64,000 bases of DNA from Polychytrium aggregatum (Eukaryota > Chytridiomycota > Chytridiomycetes > Polychytriales). The stretch covers positions 310,001 to 374,000 of the forward strand of contig NW_026516226.1 in the NCBI RefSeq assembly GCF_025602895.1. The letters run 5' to 3'. Below the pieces are notes generated by a model. That model searched no databases and was not told the DNA's origin. It saw nothing but the letters and a program-made list of their open reading frames with translations. The position numbers and the translations under genes are program-made. Positions 1,982 through 62,957 of this stretch are shown piece after piece (positions within the stretch are counted from its first letter, which is position 1; each line of letters begins with the position of its first letter).

Positions 1982-4171
1982 ATGAAGGTCCAGATCGACG
2001 AGTTCGAGTTTGACTCGGACTTTGACTCCGGCAACCTCGAAAGTGTTGTTGATCCGCTGGGCGGCGCTGGTCTCGAGGACTCGTCTGCGGCCCCTTTTCC
2101 GGCGACGAAGGGAACCCGGCGATTTGTTCTGTTCACACGGCCCGATGGCGCCGAGGAAGGCGCAACCCTGTCATCTAGCGACAAGAACAGGACATGGTTC
2201 CACTTTTCCGTTCGGCTCGCATCTGGCCCAGAAGTCTGCAGCGAGAATCGTTCGGATGCGAGCGCTGGCCCCAAGAAAACATTGTCCTCGCCAGCCAAGG
2301 GAGCATCGGCCAGGCGAATGCTTCCGAGTCGGGGTAGCGACTCTCTCACTCGCCTTACAAAGCCCGTCCAGTTGATCTTTCCGAACCTGAACAAGGTCCA
2401 GAAGCTCTTTGTGGCAGGGATGCGGCCATTCTTCCGCCGGGACGGCGACGGAGGCTGGAAGCGGATCTCACGGGCCCCGCTCTTCAAAGCATTCGACTCG
2501 GGCATGCGGCTCTGCTTCGAGTTTGACTTCTACGAGGCAATGTCCTCGACAGAGCTGCAGCAGCTCCCGCGCATTGATATCAAGTACTACTTTGCATACG
2601 GGATGCCGTACTCGTGTGCTGATCTCCATCTCCGACTGAACTGCCTCGATGCATTGTTCAAGGCCCACAACCCAAAGGCTGTCCCGAGCCTGCCCTCGAT
2701 CACTCAGACGGTGAGAAAGTCCATCCAAGACACACACGCCTCGATCGATCGTCTTGGAAAGACTGCTGGCACAACCGCGGAGGTCGGCAGCCTCTACTGG
2801 CATCGCGATACTTTGGCCGAATCGATCGAAAAACTCCCGATCGAGGTTCTGACAATCACGTCCACTGAGGACATGCTCGAGATTGAAGAGGATTGCCGCA
2901 TCCAAGGGCTCTTCCCTGACAGGGCTATCCCAAGAGCCAAGCGATTTCTGATGGCAAACGAGCAGAATCAGAGACCATCACTCGACGGCGGCGACACCGG
3001 CGATTCCTCAGGATCCCACAGCACCAGTCCTGCCAGCGACAGCAACTCGAGCCGCACTTCGCGATCCTCCCGCCGCGACATTCCGGTTGGCAATCGCAAG
3101 TCCCGGACTAAGCAAGGCGCCAAGGCCGCTGGGAAGCGGTTCGTGTTTGTGAGCGGACGGGTGCATCCTGGTGAAGCGGTGGCCAGTTACATGTTGGACG
3201 GGTTTCTCGGCTTTATTATCTCGGCCGATCCTCGAGCCAAGCTCCTGAGGAGCATGTTTGTTTTCAAGATCGTCCCGATGCTGAACCCGGACGGTGTGCG
3301 CCTGGGCTGCTATCGTGGCGATGGTCGTGCAGTTAACCTCAATCGAGTCTACGACGACCCGGACCCAGTGCTGCATCCGACCATCCACGCAACGAAGCAG
3401 TATATCGGCTACCTGTCGATGCTTGGGTCGATCGCATACTATTTCGATTTTCACGGCCATGCCAACAAATTCGGGTGCTTTCTGTTTGGCAACCGGCTCC
3501 CGTTGCTCGACGACCGCATTCAATCCTGGATGTTTGCTCGGTGCATGGAGCTCAACTGCCCGCAGTTTGACATTCAAAAGTGCGAGTTTCTGCGCTACGA
3601 AGCCCCGGATTCGGCCGGAAGCGCACGCTCTCTCCAAGAACGGAGCGACAATATGAACCGCGACCGAAGCGGCCGGGCGGTCATGTTCCGCGAGTTTGGG
3701 ATCGTCCATAGCTATACGATCGAGGCCAACTACCACTGCTGCCAGAAGCCGACAAGGGTGACTCCACGACGGATGCGGGATGCTGGCTTGTCAAGTCCAC
3801 CGGTATATCCGAAAGCAATATTGGGCAAGGGATGGTCTGTTGACGAGCTGGAAGGCATGGGCAAGGCCGTAGCCATCTCGATCTTGGACACGGCAAGAGC
3901 AAACCCATACACCCGCGTTTCTTGGCCAACGGCACAGACCTGGGCGAGGGAACAAGCCATGGCAATGTCCAAAGAGCCAAGTTCGGGAGGCTCCAGTTCG
4001 TCGTCGCTCGTGTCGATCAGCTCCATCGGGTCCGAGGCGCCATCGCCGCGGGAGCGCCCTGACGGAGATTCACTGCGGATCAGCGTTCGACTAAAGTCCA
4101 TCAATCTGAATGACCAGTACTCGAAGCGGCCTGCAGACCCCTCCCGAGCAGTACCAGCGCTGCAACGATGA
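1982..4171 (+). CDS. AGBL5: CCP5/AGBL5-like cytosolic carboxypeptidase (tubulin deglutamylase), M14D family
   Basis: A single exon encodes 729 residues. The N-terminal beta-rich domain of cytosolic carboxypeptidases is present (NRTWFHFSVR, then LIFPNLNKVQKLFVAGMRPF). The M14 catalytic domain follows with the zinc motif HPGE at about residues 395-398, MLNPDGV, the third zinc ligand in FDFHGH at about 491, and the presumed general base Glu in YTIEANY at about 581. The pattern is closest to CCP5, which removes branch-point glutamates from tubulin, in keeping with an organism that builds flagella. A Ser-rich spacer of about 50 residues separates the two domains. I chose the ATG at 1982 because the upstream 94 in-frame codons look non-coding. 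The C-terminal 120 residues are Ser-rich and poorly conserved. Confidence 0.88.
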   Translation: MKVQIDEFEFDSDFDSGNLESVVDPLGGAGLEDSSAAPFPATKGTRRFVLFTRPDGAEEGATLSSSDKNRTWFHFSVRLASGPEVCSENRSDASAGPKKTLSSPAKGASARRMLPSRGSDSLTRLTKPVQLIFPNLNKVQKLFVAGMRPFFRRDGDGGWKRISRAPLFKAFDSGMRLCFEFDFYEAMSSTELQQLPRIDIKYYFAYGMPYSCADLHLRLNCLDALFKAHNPKAVPSLPSITQTVRKSIQDTHASIDRLGKTAGTTAEVGSLYWHRDTLAESIEKLPIEVLTITSTEDMLEIEEDCRIQGLFPDRAIPRAKRFLMANEQNQRPSLDGGDTGDSSGSHSTSPASDSNSSRTSRSSRRDIPVGNRKSRTKQGAKAAGKRFVFVSGRVHPGEAVASYMLDGFLGFIISADPRAKLLRSMFVFKIVPMLNPDGVRLGCYRGDGRAVNLNRVYDDPDPVLHPTIHATKQYIGYLSMLGSIAYYFDFHGHANKFGCFLFGNRLPLLDDRIQSWMFARCMELNCPQFDIQKCEFLRYEAPDSAGSARSLQERSDNMNRDRSGRAVMFREFGIVHSYTIEANYHCCQKPTRVTPRRMRDAGLSSPPVYPKAILGKGWSVDELEGMGKAVAISILDTARANPYTRVSWPTAQTWAREQAMAMSKEPSSGGSSSSSLVSISSIGSEAPSPRERPDGDSLRISVRLKSINLNDQYSKRPADPSRAVPALQR

Positions 4172-13861: not shown

Positions 13862-16800
13862 ATGCATGCCTCGGCTGCCATGGCGTCGGCCCAAGCTTCC
13901 CGGAGCTTCCGAACATCCTCGATCTACATGGACCAGCACCAGGCCCAGCGAGATCCGACTCTGCCTCCGCGATCGCACTCACGGGCCTCGCACATCTTCA
14001 CCCAGGATCCCCGCGAATCCCGCGAGCTCCACATCCCTATAAAGGACCACTTGCTGGAGCGCCTGATCGAAATCGAGGAGACTCGGTTTGCGTTCGAGAA
14101 GGAAAAGGTTAGCCGGATGGATGTGTGGATCCTGTGCTTCACAGACAGCAGGGCATTGGGGATGTGCAAACGCCATGAGCAAAGCAGCGGCCCACAGGTC
14201 GATTGGGTTGCTGGGTTGTCTGTCGGTTTTGTCTCCTCGGCATTCGCCGGCTTCTCATACCCTCCTCGTTCCTGTGTTAACCTCCGTTTTCCTGGCCCTG
14301 CCTCGCAGGAGCAGCGCGAGGCCATCTTCCGCCAGCGGATGCTGTCCATTGCCGAGTCGCAGTTCACCTTCGACATGCAGAAGGTAATGATCATGGCGCC
14401 CTTGGCCGGCTCTCCAAGCGCCATTGAGGCCAGCCCCACCCTCCACAACCCCTCCTCGTATCGCCAGCGTCGTATCGCCAGCGTCTTTCGCCAGCATCTT
14501 TCGCCTTCCCCGACCCATTCCCTCACTCTTCCGGTCTCGCTCGCATGTGTGGTGGTGGCTCCACCTTACCCTCCCCATTCCCGCCTGCACCGTTTCCGTT
14601 GCTGGAGCGCTGACCGCCCCCCGTTCACCCACCCCCCTCGTCAACGCTTCTGACATCGGCGCCCGCTCCATCCACAGGCACAGAAGGATCGTGATACTCA
14701 GCAGCAGTTGCGCAACGATGTATTGGTGAGTTCTGGCTGCCGGTTCCACCGGGCGAGTGTGCTGCTGCCTCGGCGTCACCGTGGGCCTCCAGCATTGATG
14801 TCAAGTGGTGTTTGTGACAGGGATCCTTGGTCGGCGTGCAAAACTCGCTCTCGGGACTGGTGAGTACTTGGACCTCCAATGGCCTGGCTGCTGCCGGTCC
14901 ATGCCCATGCTTGCGGGCCCTGTTCATCTGGTTGGGCGGTCGGATACAGCCGTCTTTGGCTGCGGCGAAAGTATCACGACCGAGAACGACGTCGGGCTCA
15001 CCTGCTGCATCCCTGCAGGAGCGTTCGCTGCTGTTCTTTGTCGACCAGCTCGACCAACGGGTCCATGCCCTCCAGTCCAACATGGTGGCCCTGCAAGCTC
15101 AGGTCCTGACCCGAACCGACCCACAATCATCCGCGGGCGCTGCCGCTCCTGTGCGGCCCCGCACCCACTCGCACCCGAGCAGCGAGTCGGGCGGATCGTC
15201 CACCAAGGCCGTCTCGGCTCGAGCTGCGGCTCCGGCTGACGCCCCGGCCAGTCTCCCGCCCTCAAAAGCACTGAAAGTGTACTTTAGCTATTGCTGGGCA
15301 AACAGTCGGTATGTAGGCACCGCCATCCGCATCTGCGAACCACGCGCTCATTGTAGGGCCGATCGAAGAAATCTCGGTCACAATGACCTGTACGAACACG
15401 ATACCCGCCGGCCAAGCAGACCAATTGATCGTATCGAGCTCTCTTACATCCATGAACAGCGATCAAGTTGCTAAAAACATCCAGGCTCAGAAGGCCAACC
15501 GCTCGGATTTGGATCTTTGTGGGCTGTAAGTACTCGGCCGCGCGAATCACAAGTGCTGGGCCTGGCCGGAGACGATGGACTCAGTGGCTTCCCATGTGGC
15601 ACCGCAGGGGATTGAATGGGTTCTTCACGGAACATCGTGTGGGACGGTAATACTTTTATATGACTGATGTGCTTGGCTGTGCCCTGTTTCTTCCAGCTTG
15701 GACCCGCGTCGACTGGCGATTGCGCTGGTCAGTGCGACAAAATACGAGCCATGGCTTGACGTGAGCGAGCTCGACATCCACAACGAAGGCGAGCGGATGA
15801 GCGAGCGTTTGGATGCCATCGAGAGCAAAGGTAGGCATGCTCAGACCCATGCGCGCATCATCTCAACCCACGAACTGTATCGGCAGGCGATCTCGCCCGA
15901 CCAGACGACGCAGCCAACGCATCGATGCAACTCAACCGACGGACGGCCGTGTGACGCTCGCTGTTTCCTTTCGTAGCCGAAGTCTTTGTGGCGTTTATCT
16001 CGGACGAATATGCCGCCAGCAAGGCTTGGTGAGTTGGCTCGCTTTCATGGACGCTAATGGGCCAGCAAGCATGGCAGCAGCGGGACAATGCAGAAGCAGC
16101 AGCCAGAGACAGAGGAGTACGTGCGAATCTTCATCGATGCCGGCATGCTGATCGTGCGTCCTTGTGGCCTTGGGCCGTCCAGCCGACAAGAGTTTTACCA
16201 AGCCGTCAAAAAGAACATCATTATAATACCGATCATTGGTGGGTCTGGCGGTCCGAGTTGGCGCATGCTCATGTAAACGTCGAACCATCGGATCCGCACC
16301 AATGGTCTGACGCCGGTTTCGTTTCCTGTTAGTGGGATTGTCTTCGGCCGAGAAGCAGAAGTTTGTTTCGTCCAAGCTCACCAAGTAAGGATCATACAGG
16401 CGCAGGGTCGTCGAAGCGGCGTCGTCCCCGCCCTCCATGGCTCGGTGAATCCAACTCCCTTTTCTTTCTTTGTTCAGAAAACTCGATCCTTGGAAAAGCA
16501 CAAGTGTTCGATTCTACCTCGCCGGTACCTCGTAAGTAGCGCCGAGCACACGGCTACCCCTGACCTCTCTCACTGACATGATCCACGAGTCTGGGGTGAT
16601 TCTGAAGGGAGCCGATGGCGGCGTGCTTCAAGTCGTCGCTGCGATTTGGCACCCTTGGGTGTGCTCAGCATGTGATGCGATTTGCCGCTCTCCGTTGCCA
16701 ATGGCCGACGTCTCACGCAACATCCCGTCAATGGCACGCCTGTCGCTAGATACATCGATGCCAGAGTGTCCTCTTTCGCCGACCTGGAGTCCAAGATGGC

Positions 16801-19800
16801 AGAGATCCTCGCTGTGATCCGCGCCAGGATGGACAAGCTCTCACAGGAGCGCATTCGTCGCCAGCACCACCATCAGAGCCACCCCGAGCATCCGCCCGAG
16901 ACGCTGTTGGATGCAGTACAGGCAGGCAACCGCCAGGCCGTCCAGTTCATGATGAAAAACTCGGCCCAAACGGCAAGTCTGGTCCGCCAGGTCGACACAC
17001 GCACCGGACGGACGGCTCTCCACTTTGCGGTGCTCGACAACGACCTGGAGCTCTGTATGCTCCTGACTGCATCTCAGGCGCAGCTAGATGCCGTCGATAA
17101 GCACGGCAAGACACCGCTGATCCTTGCATGTGAGCGGGGCTTTGTCAAGATTGTTCAGTTTTTGCTCGAATCCGGCTCGGCAGTCGATGGAGTCGACGGC
17201 AGCAAGCTCAGCCCGCTCGCTGTAGCTGTTCAGAACGACTACGTCCAAGTTGCAACTGTCCTGCTGCAGTACCACGCAAACGCTCGCCTCAAGGATGCCC
17301 ACGACGAGACCCTGCTTCACAAGGCTGCTGAGATGGGCCACGCCAAGCTGATCCCGCTGCTGCTGAATGAAGGCTGCGAGCGCGACGCCAAGACCCAGGA
17401 TGGGTCAACCGCCCTGATGCTTGCCGCTCGAAACGGCCACGCTCATGTCGTTGTGAATCTGATCGAGCACTCGGCCGATGTCAACGACCGCCGCTATGAC
17501 CAGCTGACTGCCCTGATGGTGGCGGCACACGGCGGCGAGCTCGAGGTGGTGCGCGCTCTTGTCGAAAGCGGCGCCATCATCAACGAAGGCGACGACGACG
17601 GGTACACCTCCCTGATGCATGCCTGTGTCGGAGGCCACCCTGATGTTGTCAGCTACCTTGTCGAGCACGGCGCCCTGCTGACCTCGGAGTGCAACAACGG
17701 CTGCACTGCCCTGATGCTGGCGGCCGAAAACGGGCACCTGCGCGTCGTCAAGTTCCTGGTCGGCAAAGGTGCCTCGCTGGACCAACAGAGCCGAGACGGC
17801 TGGACGGCGCTGATTGCCGCCGCTCAAGACGGGCAGATGGCCGTTGTCGAGTATCTGGCCCAAGCCCAGGCGCCCCTGGATCAAGCCGACAACGATGGAT
17901 GGACGCCCCTGGTGCATGCCTCCCGAAACGGCCATTTGAATGTGGTGCAGTTCCTGGTCGAAAAGCAGGCCAAGATCAACCTGGCGACCACAGACGGACG
18001 CACGCCGCTGACCCAAGCCTCGCTCAGCGGGCATCTGGAGATTGTCAAGTACTTGCTGCAGAAGGGAGCTGTGGTCAACCAGCAGCCCGACGAGGGCTGG
18101 ACAGCGCTCATGCTGGCAGCACAGAATGGCCATCTGCATGTCGCCAAGCACCTCGTCGAAAGCCAAGCCTCACCCGCACTCGAGAGCAAAGATGGACGAA
18201 CGGCTTTGATCCAAGCGTCGCTGAACGGCCACCTGGAAGTTGTCCAGTTCCTGATCGAGAGCGGCGCCCTGGTCAACCAGCAGCCCGGCAAATCTTGGAC
18301 CGCGCTGATGGTCGCTGCCCAGAACGGCCATCTCGAGGTCGTCCACACGCTGCTGGACAATCAAGCCAACGTCAACCAGCAGAGTAGGGACGGGCGAACG
18401 GCGCTGATCCAGGCGTCGCGCAACGGACGCACTGAGGTCGTTAAATACCTCATCGAAAAGACCGCCGAGATCGAAGCAACGACCAAAGACGGATACACCT
18501 CGCTGATGGTCGCCGCCCAAAACGGACATGCCGACGTGGTCGAGTGCCTCCTGGAAGCCGGTGCGGTCGTGGAGCACGAATCAACCGACGGCTGGACGGC
18601 GCTCAAATATGCTGCGTCGAACGGACATGTGCAGGTTGTCCAACTGCTTGCCAAACAAGCCTCGTCCGTGAACCAAGTCACCCGAGACAGCTGGACGGCG
18701 CTGATGGTCGCGGCCCAGGGCGGCAAGCTCGAAGTCGTCAAGGTCCTGTGCGAACACAACGCCGATCTGTCCTATGGAGCCGGCCGCGGCCTGACGCCGC
18801 TGATTCTCGCTTCACAAAACGGTCACCTGGATGTCGTCGAATACCTCTTCGAAATGGGATCGAACATTATCGAGCAGACGGTAGACGGCTGGACGGCGCT
18901 GACAACCGCGTCTCAGTACGGCCAGTACGCCGTTGTGCAGTATCTGATCCAGAAAGGTGCGCCGGTCAGCGACGAAGACGAGCTTGGCTGGACGGCGTTG
19001 ATCTATGCCGCCCGCAACGGCCACCAAACCATCGTGCGGATCCTGGTCGAAAGCGGCGCGCTGATCGGCCACAGGAGCCGAGACGGGCGCACGGCCCTGA
19101 CGCAGGCATCGCTCAACGGCCACCTGGGTGTGGTGCAGTACCTGCTCTCGAAGGAGTCGCTCGAGGCGCAGCAGCCGCCGGACGGATGGTCGGCTCTGAT
19201 GCTCGCCGCGCAGAACGGACACTTTGAAATCGTCAAGGAGCTGATCGACCAGGGTGCCGATGTCAACGAGCAGAGCCGAGACGGACGAACGGCACTGATC
19301 CAGGCATCGCTCAACGGCCACCTCAGCGTCGTCAACTACCTGCTAGAGTTTGGTGCCCAAATCAACCAGCAGCCCAACGATGGCTGGACAGCCCTCATGG
19401 TTGCCGCGCAGAACGGACACCTGGCCGTTGTGCAAACCCTGGTTGAACACGAGGCGCTGTTGAGCCAAAAGAGCCGAGATGGCCGCACGGCGCTGGTCGA
19501 AGCCGCTCGCAAGGGACACATTGAGATCGTCAAGTACCTGTGCGAGAAAGAAGCCCTGCGCCAGCCCCGACCCAAGGACATATGGCTTGCCCTGCGACAG
19601 GCATCGCAGAACGGGCACGTCGAGGTGGTCAAGTGCCTGATCTTCGAAAACAAGGATGTGATCATGAGGCTCGACAAGGGCTCGACGGCCCTCCGGCTGG
19701 CTCTGCAGTACGGACACAGCGAAATTGCCAAGCTGCTGATGGACATGGGTGCCGTTCTCGACAGCAACGATTCCAACGGCGAAGACGCCTTCCTGAATGC

Positions 19801-20086
19801 CTGCCACAGCGGCAAGACCGAGCTGGTGTCGTTCATCATCGAGACAGGAGCCAACCTCAACGTCGTCAACCAGCAGGGCGAGAGTGGCCTGATTATCGCC
19901 GTCCGCGAGGGCCACATCCACCTGGTCAAGCTCCTGCTCGGCACCAACATCAACGTTCGCCACAAGCGCAAGGACGGTGAGTCGGCGCTGTCGCTGGCAT
20001 ACCAGCTGGGGCACATCGAGATGCGCAACATGATCGAGGAAGCGATCCGCCAGAACCGCCGGAGCACGTTGCTGTCGATCGAATAG
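13862..20086 (+). CDS. Coiled-coil/TIR/ankyrin-solenoid protein (about 1482 residues, 12 exons)
   Basis: Exons fit at 13862-14107, 14309-14383, 14678-14725, 14821-14859, 15019-15308, 15460-15525, 15697-15830, 15977-16028, 16183-16238, 16333-16384, 16478-16531 and 16750-20086. Residues 60-200 form a coiled coil (LIEIEETRFAFEKEK, then QREAIFRQRMLSIAESQFTF). Residues 222-372 are a TIR domain: strand A KVYFSYCWANSR, LDPRRLAIAL, BB loop YEPWLDVSEL, strand C AEVFVAFISDEYAASKAC, then RQEF with the likely catalytic Glu320, and strand E NIIIIPIIVG. Residues 421-1475 hold about 32 ankyrin repeats. The TIR family either scaffolds signalling or cleaves NAD; which applies here is inference. The acceptor at 16183 rebuilds the conserved C-x-x-E-F motif, whereas an earlier one at 16081 would add 34 residues in frame. 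A second ATG at 13880 has the better start context. Confidence 0.9.
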
Positions 20087-22033: not shown

Positions 22034-23867
22034 TTACTTCTGTTACAAAAGAACCAGAGATTGTGCAAATCGTTAGAATCGGGCCGGCGTCGATTTGGCG
22101 GAGCCGGCTTGACAGAATCAATGACCGACCACCCGGTATGCGAACGCACAGCTGTTGCTATTGCCGCACCGGCAGCATCTACATCAGGTCTGCTCGAGCC
22201 GTGCCACACACGGCCAAATATCGACATCGGTTGCCCTACCTTCTTGTTGTTCTTCTTCTTCGAGGCACGGACGGGCTGCTTCAGCAGCTCCTTCAGCTCC
22301 TCGTTCTTCAGCTCCTTCTCGCTCTTGACGAGCTCCTCGCTCCATGGGAAGCTGGTGATCTTGAGAGGGCCGTTGGGCATCAGAAGCACGGTGTACATGA
22401 AGTGGGCAACGTGGGCATCCTCCTTTTCGTACAGGACGTTGTACGGAATAACAAGGTTGTGGTTGGCGAGCTCGATCATGCCCATGCGGGCCTTCTTCTC
22501 GTCTTCAAACTGGCGGAGCGAGAACGCCATGTTGCCGAACTTGCTGGTGACCTCGGAGAAGACGACGCGGGATGTTCGCATCTTGAGCTGGTAGTTCAGG
22601 CCGGCGTTGCGCTTGAAAATGGTGGTGCGGGTCTCCTGGGTCTTGGGCTTGCCCTCGCCAGTGGAGATCAGGATATCGATCGAGTAGACCTGACCCTCCT
22701 CGAAGGTGAAGGTCTCGATCTCCTTGCGCTGCTGCTCGGTGGGGTTCAGGACGATCTGCTTGGGACCGTCCAGGACATCCTTTTGGATCTGGTGAGAGAG
22801 CATGCCTGACGATTGCACAGGCCGGGGCCGTGTTAGGGCGCCGGTTGACAGGAGGTGATCGTATGCAAACAAGACGACGGAGGATGTGTGCAACTCTATG
22901 CAGAATAGAGGGCGGCGACTTACCTTCGATGGGGTTGCAGTCAAAATCCTGGACAATCTTCTCGACGGCCTCGGTGACATCGTAGTTGGTCTTGCCGGGC
23001 TTGAGGAGGCGAATAGCGGCTTCCGAGGCGAGGTAGGCAGCCTGGAGGACATCAGCCTGGCGACCGGTGACGGGGGCTTCTTTGGAGGCACCAACGACGA
23101 CGGTGTGGGCAACCTGGGCAATGTAGCCGTCCACATGGGCACCAAGTTCAATTCGGACAAGATCTCCGTTCTTGATAACGAGGGCAGCCTCCTGATCGCC
23201 AGGAAGGGGCGAGAGATGGCAGATGATGTTGTTGATGGAGACGGTGGTGGGGAAGGCAATGCCTGTCAACAAGAAGCAGAGGGTGAATGCCGTGCGAATG
23301 GGTTGGGTCGAAGGGGTCATGTCGTCGCAGTAAACTGACAGAGGCACAGCCTCGGATCTAGGCAAGTCAAAGGGAACTCTCTCCAGGGGACATGCCATGG
23401 GTCTCGTATGAACCAGCCGAAAACGTCAAGCAGCACCCATCGAGCAGCAGCGTACCCTTGTTGACCTTGCCCTTGTTGTAGACCGTCTTGGAGATTTCGA
23501 CGATGGCATCGTCACCGACCTTGCACAGATCAACGACGAGGACGCCATCAGCGACAGCAGAGAGCACGTTGGCCAGAGATCCTGAGGCGCGGCAGAGATT
23601 CAGTGCATTTGTAAGGCGTCAGAAACACAATCAGGGCGTGCGAGCGCGATCGCCTGGCGGATCCATCGAAGGGAGATCGGAAGGAAGGGGGGGGAAGTCG
23701 TCTGGTTGGGCTGGTGCTCAAGAGCGAGTGCCGCGGTGTATCGCGGGATACTAACGGTTGGCGATATCGGCAGCAGTTTGGTACTTTGTGACGTTGTTGG
23801 GGGTCAGAGCGTTGACGTCCTCCTCAACGACGGGGGCGGCAGCGGCGGTGGCGTTTTCCTCAGACAT
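22034..23867 (-). CDS. PA2G4: EBP1/PA2G4-like protein (pseudo methionine aminopeptidase), five exons
   Basis: The protein belongs to the EBP1/p42 group, which has the pita-bread fold of methionine aminopeptidase without activity and binds ribosomes and rRNA precursors. Exons fit at 23756-23867, 23456-23581, 22924-23262, 22240-22805 and 22034-22039, giving 382 residues. Landmarks are NNVTKYQTAADIANR near the start, DLCKVGDDAIVE, GIAFPTTVSINNIICHLSP, GDLVRIELGAHVDGYIAQVA, GEGKPKTQETRTTIFKR, FEDEKKARMGMIELANHN, VLLMPNGPLKITSFPW and a Lys-rich tail. The last coding exon is only AAG TAA. It is inferred from a good branch site and acceptor; without it the frame would run on for about 65 unrelated residues. 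Confidence 0.9.
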
Positions 23868-41820: not shown

Positions 41821-43383
41821 TCATTCTTGATACTTGCCCAGGCGCTTCAGCTCGTGCTTTGCTTCCCACCACCCCTGGTCTGCTGACCTATGATACCACA
41901 AGACGGCGGTGTCGATGTCTTTGGCCACACCAAGACCATTCCTGAAGCAGTTTCCCAGCCGGACCTGTCCGTGTTGGTTGCCCTGCTCAGCCGATTTGCG
42001 ATACCACTCGGCTGCCTTGGTTTCGTCCTTGGTGACTCCCCACCCGTTGCCGTAGCACGCACCAACCATCCACTGCCCGTACGAGTTGTCCTGGTCGGCT
42101 GCCTTGCTGAACCAGTAGAACGCCTTGGAGTAGCTTCTCGGAACTCCTCGGTAATAGAAATAGCAGCATCCGGTCCAAAACTGGCTATCGCTGTGACCCT
42201 CGTTGGCAAGCTGCTCAAAGATGCTCACCGCCGTGTCGCTTGTCCCTTCTTTGCCGTATTCGATTCCAAATTTGCAATTCAGACACAGGGCTGTGAGGTG
42301 CTTGCAGAGCCAGTCTCGCTCCGATCCAAGCTGACACAGCTTGAAGAGTTTGCGTGCAGCGGGTGAGTGGGAGCCAGGCGCATTATATCCGCCAAAGCAT
42401 TTTCCATCGCCAAGGGAAAACTCTGGAGACTGGTTCTCTCGGATGATCAGGATGCCCCTCTGCTTGTCTTGCTGAGTTCCCCGGCCGAGGTAGAGCATCC
42501 AGCCAACCATATGGGTGGCGATGGGCTTGGTGATCCGATCGGTGGACTTGTCGCTGACCTCCTGCCAGTGGCTGAAGGCATCGACATCACTCTGCTCGAC
42601 ACCGTGGCCGATGAATGAGACCCAGCCGCCAAGGAATGTTGCTCCAAGGCGAGCACTTTTGTCGCCTTGACTGGCAGCTTTGGTGTACCACTCGATGGCG
42701 GTGGTGAGATCTTGCTTGACACCCTCCCCGTTCTCGTAACATTGGGCGAGACTGGCACTGGCCTGAGCGATTCCGCGGTTGGCACATTCATGGAGCAGCC
42801 CGATGGCTTTGGTGTGGTCTTGGTCGGCTCCGTGACCGGTGAGATAACACTTGGCCAGACTCAGGTGGGCCATTGGATGGCCGGCCCCTGCAGCTTTTTC
42901 CAGAAGGCTCAGGATGCGGCCGTTTTGTGAAGATGGCGTGGAGCGCTCGGAAGCGGCGTCATCAGAGTCGCTGTCATCATAAGCGTCATCCGGTTCATCT
43001 TCACACTCTGCCCGCCTGTCGATCTTCAACAGCAGGAACCGAGCCAGGAAGAGCGAGGCGACGATGTCTGCTTGGTCGGTCAGGGCGGCAAGCCAAGAGT
43101 GGTCGTCGACGGCTTGATCGCCGAATCGGCGAGAGATGGCGATCATATCGCTCGGCAAGATCAAGTCGGGCAGCGGCTTGTCTGGGCGATACAGGCCATT
43201 TCCCCTGCACCAGCGGCGGAATCGAGTCAGCTTGGAGTTCAAGATCGGACCAGCCCGTCTGCAGATCCCAAACAGTGCACCGAGCTCGTTCAGCGTGAGT
43301 GACAGCGTGAAGCAATCATTGGAGAAGACGATCGTCAGGATGTCCGGGCCACAGCGGTGGTCAAAGGTGAGTCCCTGGGCCAT
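41821..43383 (-). CDS. Sel1-like repeat protein
   Basis: A single exon of 520 residues ends at 41821. The N-terminal 120 residues (TFDHRCGPDILTIVFSND, FRRWCRGNGLYRPDKPLPDL) form a conserved leader seen before Sel1 arrays in chytrid proteins as far as I recall; its function is unknown. After an acidic linker about seven Sel1 repeats follow (for example AHLSLAKCYLTGHGADQDHT, ASLAQCYENGEGVKQDLTTA, WYRKSAEQGNQHGQVRLGNC). Sel1 solenoids are protein-binding adaptors. The ATG at 43383 is the first in frame, but the frame stays open without an ATG up to about 43555 and reads plausibly (NTFVLDGSVQGGISSLITSG), so an upstream first exon may exist. Confidence 0.8.
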   Translation of the reverse strand: MAQGLTFDHRCGPDILTIVFSNDCFTLSLTLNELGALFGICRRAGPILNSKLTRFRRWCRGNGLYRPDKPLPDLILPSDMIAISRRFGDQAVDDHSWLAALTDQADIVASLFLARFLLLKIDRRAECEDEPDDAYDDSDSDDAASERSTPSSQNGRILSLLEKAAGAGHPMAHLSLAKCYLTGHGADQDHTKAIGLLHECANRGIAQASASLAQCYENGEGVKQDLTTAIEWYTKAASQGDKSARLGATFLGGWVSFIGHGVEQSDVDAFSHWQEVSDKSTDRITKPIATHMVGWMLYLGRGTQQDKQRGILIIRENQSPEFSLGDGKCFGGYNAPGSHSPAARKLFKLCQLGSERDWLCKHLTALCLNCKFGIEYGKEGTSDTAVSIFEQLANEGHSDSQFWTGCCYFYYRGVPRSYSKAFYWFSKAADQDNSYGQWMVGACYGNGWGVTKDETKAAEWYRKSAEQGNQHGQVRLGNCFRNGLGVAKDIDTAVLWYHRSADQGWWEAKHELKRLGKYQE

Positions 43384-44532: not shown

Positions 44533-47500
44533 ATGCTCAGGGCCATCTCCTGTTGTTTTGGAGGGTTCACAGACCCGGTCGACGACCGAGATGTCTCCCA
44601 GCAGACCCCTATCTCCCTCTACCAGCAGACCCACCCACCAGCAGCCCAACAGAGCCAGCCTCCTGTCTCCAAGCAGACCCAGGATGTCGTCGCCCAATCT
44701 GCTGACACTCAACCCCAGACCCCTGTTTCCCAGCAGCCAAAGTTCCCTCCTCCGCCCGATCCGTTTGGCCCTTGGCTCCATCCCGTCGAGTGTCTCATCA
44801 ACACTGCTCGCGATGAACCCGATGCCCTTCTGATCAACACTTACGAGAACGGTGCATCTCGGAGCGACTCAGCTATCTCCAGGTGTGGAAGCAAGCCTAT
44901 TCGGTCGCCCAGGCCCTCAAGGCTCTGCCTGGCTGGAGCGACGACGGCCACGAGGCCATCGGCACCTTCTGTGAGGCCGAATCCAGCTGGGCGATCGACT
45001 CGCTCGCCGTGTGGATGCTTGGCAAGTGAGTATCTCTGGTCTGTTGCAGCGGTGTGATGTTGGGATGTGGAGTCGTGAGGACGGGCTCAGGCAAGGGTCA
45101 TGTTCAACCCTTGCTCCGTGCCATGTCAAGGGTCGAGTCTCACCTGTCCTTTGAACTCCATCCAGGAAAACACTCAACCTTGCCCTCAACCTGCCACCTG
45201 CAGCCCGCAGGGCCCTGTGCGAGAGGTTTGTGCTGGTTGCTATCGTGAGGATGAGCAGGCTGGTTCCTGCATCCTGGGTTGAGCCAGCTTCTCTTCTGGG
45301 CTGGTCGACTGAGATCCTGACACTCACATCGCCACCAACCGACAGACATGCGATCAAGTACATCCTCCACCACCACACCAAGCCCGGCCGCACCGAAGGC
45401 GTGACCCTGGTCGATGCTGCCACCTTCCCGGTGTTGGACGACATTCCATCACCGACTCTCGATATCTGTGAGCCCCTTGATGAGTTTATTGCCTTTATGG
45501 CAACCTCCGGAACAACTGGTATGTGAGAGGAGTATGCGAGTGCCTGGGATTGCTGATAAGCCAAGGTCCAGCCACAAAGGTCGAGCATGGGAAGTTGAGC
45601 TCTAGCGGTTGCGACAGTAGATGACAGACAGTGAAGCACCGGTTGGAAACGTATTTGACCTCTGTGTATCAATCCTCGATGCTGCTCCCTGATCAACCCA
45701 AAAGGCATTCCGAAGACGTAAGTGACTCATGGCATTGCATCCATACTGCTCACTCGGATCGAATGAAGGATCTCACACTCAGTGCCTTGTGGTTCTTCAG
45801 ATACAAGTTCCCTCATACTGGTGCAATCTCTGGCCGAGGCGCTCTGGGACTCGAGTATGTGAGTTCCGGGCTGTGCCAGGTAAGTCACACGGTTCTGAGC
45901 GACAGAGTTGAGCCATCCATGCATGAGAACTAACGCGGAATGACAACCAGGCACCTTCGTTCGGTGCAACAATCATCTCAATGCTTTGCGTCTTGAGCCT
46001 CAAAGGATCCATTTGGTTTCCCGAGCCCACACCCAATACTGTGGACAATGTCAAGAGCATCATCAGAATGCTTAACGATGGTCTGTGGCATTTGTATATG
46101 GTAAGTAGAGTGCATCAAAGGCAAGGTTCCTTCGTCCCAGTGCTGACGGATTGTCCTCTGATACAACCTTCACAGACGCCCTCACTCATGAAGTTGATCA
46201 TCAGTGTGGCTCGAATTCAGAATCCGAATGTCAAGTGGAATGAGATGAGAAAGATCGGTTTGGGCTCCGAGTTTGTTCCTGCGAACGTCGTCCTACAGGT
46301 CAAGAAGGCATTTCCTAAGGCCGAAATCATGTCTGCATATGTCTCGAGCGAGGTAAATAATTGCTTGTCGTAGTAGCACAACGACTTGATACTGATTTCG
46401 TCGCCCCTTCTCGTTGTAGGCAAGTCTTATTGGTGTTTTCACAGTATTCCACCTCCCTGCCAATCGGACAATTGCAACCGACAAACTGATCTATAAATTA
46501 GCCAAGCCTGGAGTTCGCTGTATCCTCTTTGACGAGGAGGGCAACATTGTCGACCAGAGTGTCTCGAAGAGCGGCGTGCTTGGCTTTGCTGTCGACAAGG
46601 ATCATCCCATCAAGGATCACCCGAGCTTTGTCAGTGCAAATCCGAATGACAGGCTTGCTACGTTCGGCTTCCTCGAGGATGGCTCTCCCCGTGTCTGCAC
46701 CATGGACTGGGTCGAGATGGTTGGCGAGAAGCAGTTCACTGTGGTTGGAAGGTGAGTCAATGGCTGGGTGTCGCATCTCATTGATGGCGAGTGCACATCT
46801 GGCATCCTGAGGACACATCCAACTACTGTATCGAGAGTACTCACGCCATCCACCCCCTCGCTCCACACCATCGCTCCAGATTTGACCAGAAGATCAAGGT
46901 CAACGGTGTCTATGTCGACCTCAACGCCCTCGAGGAGCTGGTTTACAAGCACATGCCTGATACCATCACAGACTGTACCTTTATCCAAACCTCCGAGAAG
47001 GAGATCGTGATGCTCTACGTCGTTCGAAAGGGATCGGGCTTCAAAGTAACCCCCAGCGAGATGATCCGCCGCACCGAGGAGCTATTTACCCTCGAGAACG
47101 TCGCCAAGTTCCCGATCCACAACGTCTTCGAACTTACACCAGTTCCCCTTCAACGACTCGAGCAAGCGCGACCTCAAGAAGCTCAGGCGTTTCGCCGAGC
47201 ATGCCGAGTACTTTGGCGAGTCGGTTAGTCTATCCAACCCTTGACATCGTCAACACCCCTCTGTCCCGCACCGCCGCCAAGATCTCCACACTTGGCAGCC
47301 AGATCATCGACAACCCCGCCCTCGACGGCCGCAACTACTACATCGGCGGTGTCGGCTTTGACTCGCTGAGTGTCGGCCGTCTGGCCCTCGCCATCAAGGA
47401 CGAGCTGGATGTTGAGATCTCACCGATGATCTTGCTGTCGAACGGAATGACGCCGCTCGATGTCGCCCAGTTGGTCGTCGACATCCTCGACGACAAACCG

Positions 47501-49170
47501 ATGATTCCCCCGATTGTTGATCTGGCTGCCGAGGCCGCCAAGCTCGACGATGCGAGTGTGACGGCCGAGGGTCTCCCTCCGTTTGTCTATCCCAAGGACC
47601 CTCGCGGCATCGTCCTGACCGGTGCCACTGGCTTCCTCGGTGCCTTCCTGGTCTTTGAGCTGGCCCACAAGTTCCCTCGGGCCAAGATCTACTGCCTGGT
47701 CCGAGCCCCGACCGAGCAGGTGGCTGTCGAGCGCATCATCAGCACGGCTCAGAAGCTGGTCCTCGATCCGAGCCAGAGAGCCTTCCTTGACCACAGCCTC
47801 AAGTCTCGACTCGTTGGACTGTGCGGCGATCTGTCGCAGGACAAGTGGGGACTCTCGGACGAGCGATGGAAGGAGATCAGCGAGGAGACCGACATGATTG
47901 TCCACAACGGCGCCGAGGTCCACTGGCTGTTTGACTATGACAGACTCAAGGGACCCAATGTCCTCAGGCACGGCGACGGCCCTGAGACTGGCCACAACCC
48001 ATCACCTGAAGCCGCTGCACTACATCTCGACCATCGGCACGATCCCGATGGCCAAGAAGGCAGACAAGCCGCTCGAGGAGAAGATCTACTCGGCCTGGAA
48101 CATCTCTGGCGGGTATGGCCAGACCAAGTGGGTCTCTGAGCAACTGATCAACAAGGCACGATCGAGGGGAGTGCCGGTGACGATCATTCCGCCCAGCCGT
48201 CATTGCTGGCGACAGCCAGTACGGAGGTAAGCTGAGTGTGGTGGTGTGGTGTGATGTGGTGATGGATGTGGTGCAGATGTCTCAATTCGCTCACATGGAC
48301 TGGCCATGAATCGATGGTCTCGATTGTCAAGTGCCACTCATCCACCAACTGACATCAACTGACGCCTTCACACCCTCCATTCGCTCCAGTGTCCAACTCT
48401 GATGACTACATCTGGCGATATGTCAAGGGATGCATCCAACTCGGTGTTGCTCCGTCGTATGCCACTCCCGTCACCTTGACCATGGATCCCGTCGACCATG
48501 TCGCCAAGGTGGTTGCCGAGATTGCCGGCTCGGAGGAGTCCCTGTCCAAGTTTGTGTTCCACATCAGCGACTCGGAGCACAGGTGAGGACTGTGTGATGT
48601 GGTGTGTGATGTGGTGTGGTGTGGTGTGGATGGTGGATTCCGACTTTGATTACTCACCCACCCACTCACTCACTCACTCACTCACTCACTCACTCACTCA
48701 CTCACTCACTCACTCACTCACTCACTCACTCACTCACTCACTCACTCACTCACTCACTCACTCACTCACTCACTCACTCACTCACTCACTCACCCAACCA
48801 CTCAACCACCCAACCACAAAGTGTCCTCTCCGAGACCAAGCTGTTTGAGATTGTCAATGCCTTTGGCTGGCCCGTCCTCTTTGAAACTCGTGAAAAGTTC
48901 AAGTATATTCTTTCCACCAACCCCTTGTTTGACCAAAATGCCCTGTCCCCGCTCATGCACATGATGATGGACATGTCCTTCAAGCTCGACAACGCCAACA
49001 CCCGCTCGATCTACCCAACGCCCTGTCCCTCGACTGTGCTGATCGCCAAGAAGTGTCTCAGCTACTTGAACCACGCCCACTTCCTTCCCAACCCCATCCA
49101 GCCGTCGAGCGAGCTCAAGGACGACGAGTATCCCGAAGTCAGCATCTTCACCCGCACCGGCCGCAACTGA
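44533..49170 (+). CDS. Adenylation-thiolation-reductase enzyme (carboxylic acid/aminoadipate reductase-like) with five apparent frameshifts
   Basis: Enzymes of this layout adenylate an acid, load it on a phosphopantetheine arm and reduce it to an aldehyde. Exons fit at 44533-45023, 45346-45518, 45705-45717 (13 bases), 45801-45879, 45951-46100, 46176-46352, 46420-46751, 46880-48226, 48390-48582 and 48822-49170. Adenylation motifs are ATSGTTGIPKT and SAYVSSEASLIGV. The carrier site is GGVGFDSLSVGRL. The reductase has GATGFLGAF and the catalytic YGQTK, as in LYS2-type reductases. The frame breaks near 44855-44861, 47131, 47226, 47966 and 48195 while the sense continues on both sides. Four breaks look like one extra base, and the first like one missing base. 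All introns keep clean splice sites. It is a recent pseudogene or carries assembly indels. The substrate is unknown. Confidence 0.8.
48662..48793 (+). repeat. Tetranucleotide microsatellite (CACT)n, about 33 copies, in the last A-T-R intron
   Basis: An uninterrupted run of CACT units fills most of the last intron of the A-T-R gene and ends about 28 bases before the acceptor. A CCCAACCA-rich tract follows it. Confidence 0.97.
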
Positions 49171-56670: not shown

Positions 56671-59600
56671 TCACGAAGAGCTACGGGGCACGTCGCTAAA
56701 TACTTCGTCGATGACCGCTCTGAGAATGGACACAGTCAAGATGGCGTTGAGCTCCTTGACTTGCAGCATGTTGAAGACCCGGGCACAGCCGCTGGTGACG
56801 TTGCTTTTGCCAAAGACCCGCGACACGGCCTCGAGCTGAGAAACAAAGTCCTTCAACAGCACCGTCTTGGCAGAGAGCTTGGTGTCCTCCATCTCCAGCT
56901 CCGTTCGCGGCCGGGGCGGCTCGGACGAGAGACTCGACGGGGGCGCCACAAAGGATGATCCAGCGAGGTCCTGCTGCGAGCGAGCGTTCCTTAGACCGGC
57001 GGCCGTGCCGTTGCCTTGTGCGGCAGCCTCGTTCGGCCAGCCGGCCCGGATCGCCAGTTCGATATACGAGGCGACTTCGGCGGGTTGGCTCAGGTCCGTG
57101 AGGTAGTTTTCGACGTAGTTGGAGATGGTGGTTCCATAGGTCCGGCGCAGCAGCGCCTTGGCGGCGTGGAGGCCCTTTTGCAGGATCCACTGGTTGGGGT
57201 CGTTGAGGTTCAGGACTTCCTCGATGGTTTGCACGGCCGACTCGAGGACAACCTTGGTGTCCTCGGGAGAGAAGCGGACAACATAGGACAGCTTGCGGTC
57301 AGGGATAACTGAGGGCGATGTCGCTCGGAGAATGGTCTTGGCACCGGCAACAGAGGGATTGACGTACGGGGCCATCTTGCCCCGCGAGCTCGCACGGGCC
57401 ATCTTGGGCGGATCCAGCACCGAGTCCTGCTCAGGTGCCAGGGACCTCAGCGACGGCTGGCGGCCGATAACGGGAGCCGTTGCGGCGCGGTCGTGGGAGA
57501 GCGACTGGCCCGTGATCGATGCTGCCGAGCCCGAGTGATTCGGATGCATGTACAGACTAGAGTCCTTCTCGATGAGTCTGGGATCGCTCGAATCCCAGTC
57601 GTCCTCGCTGTCGGTTTCGAACCCGAGCTTCTGTAGCATCGATCCACCCTTCTTGAGGGCCCGCACGAACGACTGTTGGAGGCTGTCGGGGCCATTTCCG
57701 CCCGCCTCTGACGGAATCGAGGGGCGCTGACCACCTGAGAGAGCCTCGAGTGTTTGTTCCAGAAGGAAGGCCCGCAGCTGGGCTGTTTTGCTCAGGTCGC
57801 GATCCATGAGCAGCATGTTGGTCCACTTTTCCAGTTCGACCGCCAGAGTCTCGCGGGACTTTGCGTGCGAGATTCGCGGTCGGTTGGGCACGGGGTTGCT
57901 TCGGATAAACGCAAACTGCGGCTTGAGCACGTCGCTCAGTAGGACCCAGTCGGCGTAGCTGCGGTACAGACTCCAGCGCTGCTGGCTTCCAACGCGATTC
58001 ACCTGGACAAGGAACAGCAGACCCTTGTTTGAGACGGCGCCGAGGGTACCGGCAAAATTGGAGAGCACGCCGTCGCGTCCGTCGACCGGAGCATCGTCGC
58101 TTCCATCGCCGGTGATGTCCTGGATCGTCACGCGGACGCCGACGAGACTGACGGGATCTTCTGGTAATGCCCATCCGCTCTCGGCTGCAGCCTGAAGATA
58201 CCGCTCCTCCTCGGCCAGAAAGCGCCCGAGAATCTCGATGCGGCTCTCGATTTCAGCCTTGCTACGCTTGTACTGGATCGCCTCATAGCCGCTGCTCGAC
58301 TCAAGGGCGATCGAGATGGCAAGTGCTTCATCTTGGCCCGCGGCGATCGCGCTCCGAAGGTTACGCCGGTACTCTGAATCAAAGGTGCGGGGAGAGGCGC
58401 GTGGGGCCACAGCGTCCATGGTATGGGACTGCACTGGTGCTGCTGACGACGGATTTGTGCCAATGTCGGCGTTGGTGTCGATGTCGATGTCGCGGCTCGC
58501 AGGATGTGCTGGAGTCGGCTGAACTGCAGCAGATAGAGGCTCGTCGTCGCCAAGCAGATTTGGTTGGGCAGTGCCCACATTGCTTGATCCGTCCAGCACT
58601 GGCACCGCTGCTGGAGCTGGGACTGGATCTGGATCTGGAGCAAGGATGGATCCGTCGCCTTCTTGCACCGCAGCAGCAGGGGCTGTGAAGAGATTGCCGG
58701 GGATTTCGCTCGACAAGAAGTCGAGATTATCGGTCAGCGGCTTGGTAGAGCTCGTGACCTCAGGTGCCTTTTGGATCGTTGCCGATCGAACAGGGCGAGG
58801 TGGTTTGGGCGGGGGTAGCGCTGGTTCCGAAGATGGCGCCGCTGGCGGTGGGGAGGTCTCAGCTCGTCGACGAGGGGGCTTGGGGGGCGGTGCAGTAGAC
58901 ACGTCGGGAGCGAGGGTGTTGGCAGCGGGGAGGTTTGTTTGGCGAGGCGGAAGAGCTGGGGAAGCATTTGATGACGGTCGGGACGGGACGGTCTCTGGCA
59001 CGGCCACGGCCGCAGGCTCGATGATATGCGTCGGCTCGGTGGCATTCAGACGATCAAGGGCATCGCCGCGACCGGCGATGTCGACAGGGGGTGTGCCTCT
59101 GGCAGGCTCGACGACTTCGAAAGGATCGATGGGGCGAATAGCCGGTTCTTGGATGATCGACTCCTCCAACAGCGATCGAGGCGGCGGAGTCGGTGTGCCA
59201 TCGTTGCGTGGCGGCGCGGGCATCGAGGCAGCCGTCGGGCTGCTCCCGGTGGTGGCCAGGTACTCTTCAAAAAACTCGCTCTCTTTGAAGGCTTGCCAGT
59301 ACTGCTGCTGAACGTGCGCCTTCAGAACCTCTGTGATCTCCTCAAACACATTAGGCGAGGGATCGGAGACGATCCGATCCAGTACCCTGGCAGCGATTTC
59401 GGAATCGCCGGGGATGGAGATGGGGTACTTTGCGTCCTTGGAGAAGAACATGTCGTAGACGTCGATGGCATCGGATCTGAAGATCGCAGGAGAGGTTTCG
59501 GCCGCGTTGGCGAGTTGTTGAAACGAGTTGACCATGATGAAATACTGGGCGTAGGCGCCTACTTGGCAGCTCTCCATGAACTGGATAAACTCCATCATGG

Positions 59601-62884: not shown

Positions 62885-62957
62885 GGGGAATTAGCTCAGA
62901 TGGTAGAGCGCTCGCTTAGCATGCGAGAGGCACGGGGATCGATACCCCGATTCTCCA
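62885..62957 (+). tRNA. tRNA-Ala (anticodon AGC), no intron
   Basis: Seventy-three bases fold as a cloverleaf. The acceptor stem GGGGAAT pairs with ATTCTCC (one G-T pair). The D-arm holds TAGCTCAGATGGTAGAGC. The anticodon loop is CTTAGCA with AGC at its centre. The T-arm CGGGGATCGATACCCCG has TCGAT in place of the usual TTCGA context. The discriminator base is A, and a CCA end is not encoded. Confidence 0.95.

Follow-up and report, generated by a model that had tools for sequence, protein, structure and literature searches.

Gene A, located at positions 13862..20086 of the forward strand of the window analysed here (the whole stretch of 64,000 nucleotides of Polychytrium aggregatum DNA, G000:C157:310001-374000 of a 64.7-Mb, 418-contig assembly), has 12 exons and a predicted product of 1,482 residues in which a likely N-terminal coiled coil is followed by a TIR domain and by 32 ankyrin repeats. 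We propose, with moderate confidence and judging from its sequence, that its product is a TIR signalling protein of a chytrid-type fungus, intracellular and gated by its ankyrins. This proposal is favoured by TIR_2 matches over the family cut-off in gene A and in its two paralogues (genes B and C), by an invariant glutamate and by the exon plan that the three genes share, as well as by the conservation of the TIR above that of the ankyrins, by a coding sequence unchanged between two copies of the locus and by the TIR-NACHT layouts present elsewhere in the genome.

Gene structure and paralogues

A TIR search of the genome found, besides gene A on contig C157 and its copy on C116, gene B on the minus strand of C146 and gene C on C397, the latter with a near-identical copy on C66. 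The model of gene A was obtained by reading the three forward frames and joining them across GT-AG introns; it is in frame, all of its introns are GT-AG and its single stop is terminal, and it matches the span that a first-pass annotation of this DNA had given to the gene. That annotation had described a coiled coil, a TIR domain and an ankyrin array, and as a whole this description is confirmed, with the coiled coil graded as likely.

The TIR exons of genes B and C can be joined as in gene A and then match TIR_2 at 42.5 and 41.5 bits, respectively, both over the cut-off. Four of these exons are equal in length in the three genes, with equal intron phases between matching exons, and in gene A they are exon 6 (15460..15525, 66 nucleotides, a TIR insertion), exon 7 (15697..15830, 134 nucleotides, the DPRRLA helix and WLDVSEL with the BB-loop region), exon 8 (15977..16028, 52 nucleotides, EVFVAFISDEYAASKA) and exon 9 (16183..16238, 56 nucleotides, RQEFYQAVKKNIIIIPII). 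For exon 9 an acceptor near 16064, which adds a stretch before the glutamate, was rejected and the one at 16183 was chosen, because the exon length and a C-x-x-E-F motif then agree with those of B and C. The C-terminal part of the TIR lies in exon 10 (16333..16384), of 52 nucleotides in gene A and 61 in B and C, and the last strand region (VRFYLAGTS) in exon 11 (16478..16531), whose counterpart in gene C is found inside the ankyrin exon. Exon 12 (16750..20086) encodes the end of the TIR (YIDARV), a helical linker, an ankyrin cap, 31 repeats and the stop.

The intron before the ankyrin exon is common to genes A and B, in the same phase, and is absent from gene C, where a single open exon encodes the last part of the TIR (KLPSWRDSGIGIQICNDLYKDAVV) together with the ankyrins. 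Moreover, the TIR-ankyrin junction is homologous on both sides in the three genes (YIDARV / YLDARV / YKDAVV). Because gene C has its TIR end and its ankyrins in the same exon, the TIR and ankyrins of gene A are, by this comparison of sequences, one protein, as had been proposed. It is highly improbable that the gene model is an artefact in which TIR exons and an ankyrin exon from separate, adjacent genes were joined, given the intron plan repeated in three genes, the homologous junctions and the single exon of gene C, and we have rejected it on this paralogue evidence.

The ankyrin open frames of the paralogues are 931 (B) and 2316 (C) residues long, and the same scoring at its lowest threshold counts 31 ankyrin units in gene A, 18 in B and 49 in C. 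Identity between paralogues is 45-58% in the TIR versus 31-33% in the ankyrins, the pattern that a shared output coupled to different sensors should produce. Scanned with Ank_2, the genome showed at least 88 matches at E<=1e-10 (150 of 334 candidates scored), the strongest including genes A, C and B. Among the matches listed, the TIR-ankyrin layout was found in these three genes only, and no PF13676 match of the genome scan lies within 10 kb of an Ank_2 match, both lists being lower bounds.

TIR domain and glutamate at the catalytic position

Residues 1-421 of gene A match TIR_2 (PF13676) at 36.0 bits against a cut-off of 28 (E 1.1e-8; Pfam scan, E<=1) and TIR (PF01582) at 16.8 bits, below its cut-off of 21.3. 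The TIR_2 match begins at residue 260 and covers profile positions 15-96 of 122. Because an insertion estimated at about 20 residues sets the first TIR strand, KVYFSYCW, apart from this match, the earlier description of the domain as complete is supported by the alignment of the paralogues and not by Pfam coverage. The same scan found in gene A no LRR, contrary to a Toll-like receptor (TLR), no ARM or SAM, contrary to SARM1, and no DBB, contrary to the BCAP/BANK adaptors; a DBB model is, we assume, present in Pfam. In a structure search with the single sequence, matches to prolyl-tRNA ligase (E 0.26 and worse) were taken as chance.

The C-x-x-E motif reads SDEYAASKACRQEF in gene A, SDEYAASLNCQREF in B and SDEYAASKNCKREF in C, and its glutamate in gene A, Glu320, has its codon at 16190..16192 and is placed by the paralogue alignment as the putative catalytic residue. 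This glutamate is kept in all three genes and in six of six aligned TIRs, where it is one of six invariant columns; the alignment comprises A, B, C and the single-exon TIRs of loci L037, L038 and L039, hand-picked from 14 fetched TIR loci, of which the other 11 stayed outside it. A profile built from A, B and C aligns Glu320 with the glutamate of At1g72930 (PDB 3jrn) and of Cat1 in weak matches (E 0.05 to 0.93), and in a likewise weak profile match MyD88 has Gln at this place. The earlier claim of a Glu at the catalytic position is supported. According to the accessible part of PMC8635717, SARM1 uses this glutamate for catalysis, and plant TIRs conserve it at their catalytic site.

Ankyrin array and N-terminal region

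The last exon matches Ank_2 with an E value of 6e-293, along with other ankyrin families of Pfam, the ankyrin models of KRIT1 and LRRK2 and, below their cut-offs, four unrelated families. Residues 456-1478 (17003..20071) form a run of 31 units, each exactly 33 residues long, without an indel (200 shuffles gave a mean of 0.27 and a maximum of 3 units), and the cap before them corresponds to the first helix pair of a structural model, so that the 32 repeats of the first-pass annotation are recovered in total. This AlphaFold single-sequence model of residues 409-1482 contains 67 helices, mostly in ankyrin-like pairs, with a mean predicted local distance difference test score of 68.8 and a predicted template modelling score of 0.43. 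Two repeat types alternate weakly along the array: identity between repeats at lag 2 exceeds that at lag 1 by 0.050, a value reached by 18 of 10,000 shuffles, and for repeats 8-26, a range picked after inspecting the repeats, by 4 of 10,000. As repeat similarity is higher at lag 2 than at lag 1, and higher still at lags 9 and 11, the sequence suggests that the array grew through duplication of multi-repeat blocks.

Exon 1 (13862..14107, start codon at 13862) encodes in the splice model a low-complexity, helical N-terminal stretch (residues 1-82), of which LLERLIEIEETRFAFEKEK is clearly matched in gene C and weakly in gene B. Exon 2 (14309..14383) is in frame between GT-AG introns, its counterpart in B or C not being placed, and exons 3 (14678..14725, 48 nucleotides) and 4 (14821..14859, 39 nucleotides) equal the matching exons of gene B in length. 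Exon 5 (15019..15308) holds the end of the coil, a Ser/Ala/Pro-rich linker and the first strand of the TIR, which starts at about 15265. Using a home-made heptad hydrophobicity score, and not a published coil predictor, we found that the signal of gene A peaks at about residues 120-167 (14714..15111, exons 3-5) with a score of 4.85, reached by 7 of 200 shuffles; gene B has a heptad signal directly before its TIR linker, which none of 200 shuffles reached. The coiled coil noted earlier in the N-terminal part of gene A is thus likely, short of proof.

Two copies of the locus

The copy of the locus on C116 is near-identical to that on C157 (99.8% over 14 kb). Within gene A the two differ at 4 of 1,776 intron bases and agree at all 4,449 coding bases (Fisher p ~0.007), a comparison that supports the exon calls and, for this one pair of copies, suggests that the coding sequence is under constraint. 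The gene C ankyrin exons of C397 and C66 differ at 4 places, two substitutions and two one-base gaps, the latter of which may be assembly errors. Rows of the genome scans are often paired, with equal scores on two contigs (identity is 99.3% for C397/C66), and the paired contigs look as though the assembly had kept both haplotypes of a diploid.

Other TIR genes and the host

The genome contains 26 matches to the chitin synthase domain PF01644 and 8 to ParcG (PF10274), each exon being counted separately and paired contigs twice. We take these families to mark fungi and flagellated cells, and the assignment to a chytrid-type fungus is supported by them.

A PF13676 scan of the genome gave 39 matches, 9 of them over the cut-off, and a PF01582 scan gave none. 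Genes A, B and C are not among the 39, probably since introns interrupt their TIRs, and because introns split TIRs in this way the counts are lower bounds. Grouping equal scores on paired contigs leaves 27 places, some of them probably spurious (L030, for example). For 13 of these places, the long frames of 14 fetched loci were read, and the frames of five of the loci were scanned with Pfam. L039 has TIR_2 over the cut-off and NB-ARC below it, and L041 has NB-ARC over the cut-off and TIR_2 below; L038 has a TPR array and TIR_2 at 26.1 bits, below the cut-off (25 of 36 matched families listed). L037 (G000:C386) has a TIR of 61 bits, and in L042 (G000:C90:278001-283000) a TIR exon (46.2 bits) lies upstream of a NACHT domain followed by a WD40 array. 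In total, a same-strand TIR_2 match lies 0.5-1.3 kb upstream of NACHT at six places (8 of 15 NACHT rows, paired contigs included): C223, C90:270-272 kb, C90:282 kb (L042), C113, C46:364-366 kb and C146:143-145 kb. TIR_2 is over the cut-off at two of them, C223 and C90:282 kb. Such TIR-NACHT(-WD40) arrangements would, from their sequences, be layouts of a known receptor type, and the layout of gene A is one among a larger set of TIR genes in this genome.

Some features of these loci were noted by eye. L038, L039 and L041 (on C13, C46 and C385) look like TIR, nucleotide-binding and TPR proteins in long open frames. The single-exon TIR of L037 (L037:1629-2834) is followed by a C-terminal region that seems two-fold repeated and has no Pfam match at E<=0.01. 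L031:4500-6550 (G000:C1:1502.5-1504.6 kb) apparently contains two TIR-like stretches, which are separated and followed by a different partner region. The frame with TIR and NB-ARC in L041 is adjoined by a reverse-transcriptase-like frame (L041:65-958, minus strand), so named from what we take to be the motif of that enzyme. A HET profile search of the genome gave no match; the control genomes gave none either, so absence is not established.

Neighbouring genes and origin

Several other features of the window are ordinary neighbours: a zinc carboxypeptidase frame (1982-4171, forward strand), an M24 metallopeptidase-like frame (22505-23398, reverse), a Sel1-repeat frame (41821-43383, reverse), an RGS/nexin-C frame (56671-59598, reverse) and a tRNA-Ala (62885-62957, forward). 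At 47201-48139 of the forward strand there is a pair of carrier-protein and reductase domains, a combination also seen in the alpha-aminoadipate reductase with which fungi make lysine.

A bacterial origin was rejected after a profile scan of contigs of 84,980 prokaryote species (116 pattern matches, none confirmed) and a viral one after a profile scan of IMG/VR (61 pattern matches, none confirmed), and the TIR of gene C had no match among plasmids by tblastn; these scans begin with short patterns or are confined to those collections, so that distant relatives are still possible.

Discussion

If gene A encodes an ankyrin-gated signalling protein, the solenoid would act as the sensor and would keep the TIR inactive or scattered until a microbial, viral or damage-related ligand binds to it, or to a partner sitting on it. 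Ligand binding could then bring TIRs together with the help of the coil, and contacts of the coil or of the solenoid may hold or assemble them. By analogy with SARM1 and with plant and bacterial TIR proteins, the assembled TIRs might cleave nicotinamide adenine dinucleotide (NAD) or make a nucleotide signal, and the outcome might be cell death or defence.

Several observations weigh against such a role. The residue four positions before Glu320 (Glu-4) is Ala in gene A and Asn in B and C, and it is Trp in 3jrn and Cat1, as it is in SARM1. Because this Trp is absent, the pocket would depart from the usual form and the protein may lack NADase activity. The placement of Glu320 in a pocket itself comes from sequence alignment, and the matches to solved structures are weak, the best E values being 0.018 with the single sequence and 0.053 with the profile. 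Furthermore, gene A is without a nucleotide-binding domain, as neither NACHT nor NB-ARC was matched at E<=1 in residues 1-421 or in the ankyrin exon, and none of 20 long window frames scanned points to an immune partner of it.

The main rival, which we consider doubtful, is a scaffold without enzyme activity, in which the TIR would serve TIR-TIR or other protein contacts and the ankyrins would hold cargo, in the manner of BCAP and without NAD chemistry. The lack of the Trp and of a nucleotide-binding domain match fits it, and so does the precedent of the animal adaptors BCAP and BANK, cytoplasmic proteins in which TIR, DBB and ankyrin occur together. However, gene A has no DBB match, and the glutamate is retained in all three paralogues and all six TIRs, where the scaffold protein MyD88 has Gln. 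A second explanation, that gene A encodes a polymorphic receptor for self-recognition (allorecognition) whose variable recognition surface is the ankyrin array, is improbable. The ankyrin arrays of the paralogues do differ, the weak alternation of repeat types is as after multi-repeat duplication, and for allorecognition other fungi have genes that employ TIR-related HET domains in NOD-like receptors (NLRs), according to the accessible part of the review PMC10197012. Self-recognition is nonetheless disfavoured because the two copies of gene A are identical in coding sequence, thin evidence from one pair in one genome, which cannot show population polymorphism; the gene C ankyrin exons, too, differ at a few places only, half of them possibly assembly errors.

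Of similarly low probability is a developmental or metabolic role instead of defence, for example in stage-specific cell death or in balancing NAD while zoospores or sporangia develop. It would agree with the lack of coding change in the single pair of copies and with there being only three TIR-ankyrin genes among the matches listed, but the wider TIR set, with some members beside NACHT or NB-ARC, points to defence. Returning to the ankyrin-gated signalling protein, the immune or self-recognition receptor of the first-pass annotation is in part upheld: the architecture, the position of the glutamate and the one-gene status are supported, a receptor with NADase activity is plausible, and self-recognition is not favoured.

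A wider reading can be offered only tentatively, namely that chytrid-type fungi have a TIR-based intracellular immunity in which one output domain is joined to several sensor types, including a switchless, three-gene ankyrin-solenoid class, and which would be older than or parallel to the HET system. If this is true, the switchless class senses by the solenoid alone. Most work on fungal immunity concerns filamentous fungi and their HET-domain and NLR genes, and the TIR-ankyrin proteins of this flagellated fungus, from an understudied lineage, could belong to a fungal defence system that is little known. A TIR-ankyrin family with its glutamate kept, together with TIRs adjacent to NACHT or NB-ARC, provides a testable case of TIR signalling in an early fungal branch and, having no nucleotide switch, a simple model for the gating of a TIR by a repeat solenoid alone.

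The first-pass annotation had regarded canonical animal Toll components as not expected in fungi and the combination as worth study. Surprise at a TIR in a fungus is only partly justified by the literature, as far as the accessible parts of the sources go: TIRs occur in fungi (PMC7075850), a 2022 paper mentions an earlier report of TIR in Chytridiomycota NLRs (PMC9815663) and ankyrin repeat-TIR proteins, as yet uncharacterised, are shared by some oomycetes (PMC9153377, where discussion of TIRs in fungi is acknowledged to a colleague); the 39 TIR_2 matches of this genome go in the same direction. The TIR-ankyrin kind is thus already known though uncharacterised. The chytrids analysed in 2014 gave no NLR hits, and the same source notes a remote similarity of HET to TIR (PMC4986451, accessible part). 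What stands of the surprise is the switchless TIR-ankyrin class in a fungus: the layout is not described in the accessible parts of PMC5094078 or PMC7075850, and no description of a chytrid TIR-ankyrin protein was found among the best-ranked matches in the open-access PMC literature, as far as their accessible text goes.

Among known systems, the oomycete proteins are like gene A in combining a TIR with ankyrin repeats in a microbial eukaryote (PMC9153377, accessible part), but they are not fungal and were compared by description, not by domain order, repeats, coil or residue. The TIR NLRs of Chytridiomycota and bacteria share with gene A a TIR and a repeat array, and similar layouts exist elsewhere in this genome; unlike in them, a nucleotide-binding domain between TIR and repeats was not found in gene A. 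SARM1 also joins a helical solenoid to a TIR with a catalytic glutamate (putative in gene A), but it carries ARM and SAM, where gene A has ankyrins and the likely coiled coil, it has the Trp at Glu-4 that gene A lacks, and its TIR lies at the opposite end. BCAP and BANK are similar in holding TIR and ankyrin in one protein, from which gene A differs by the missing DBB match and by an ankyrin array that is far longer than that of BCAP. In the accessible part of PMC8635717, the SARM1 NADase is described as gated by ARM-TIR autoinhibition and BCAP as a negative regulator of TLR signalling. Finally, the HET-domain NLRs of filamentous fungi resemble gene A in coupling a TIR-related effector to a repeat sensor (PMC4986451, PMC10197012, accessible parts), with the difference that gene A has a TIR_2 domain in the place of HET.

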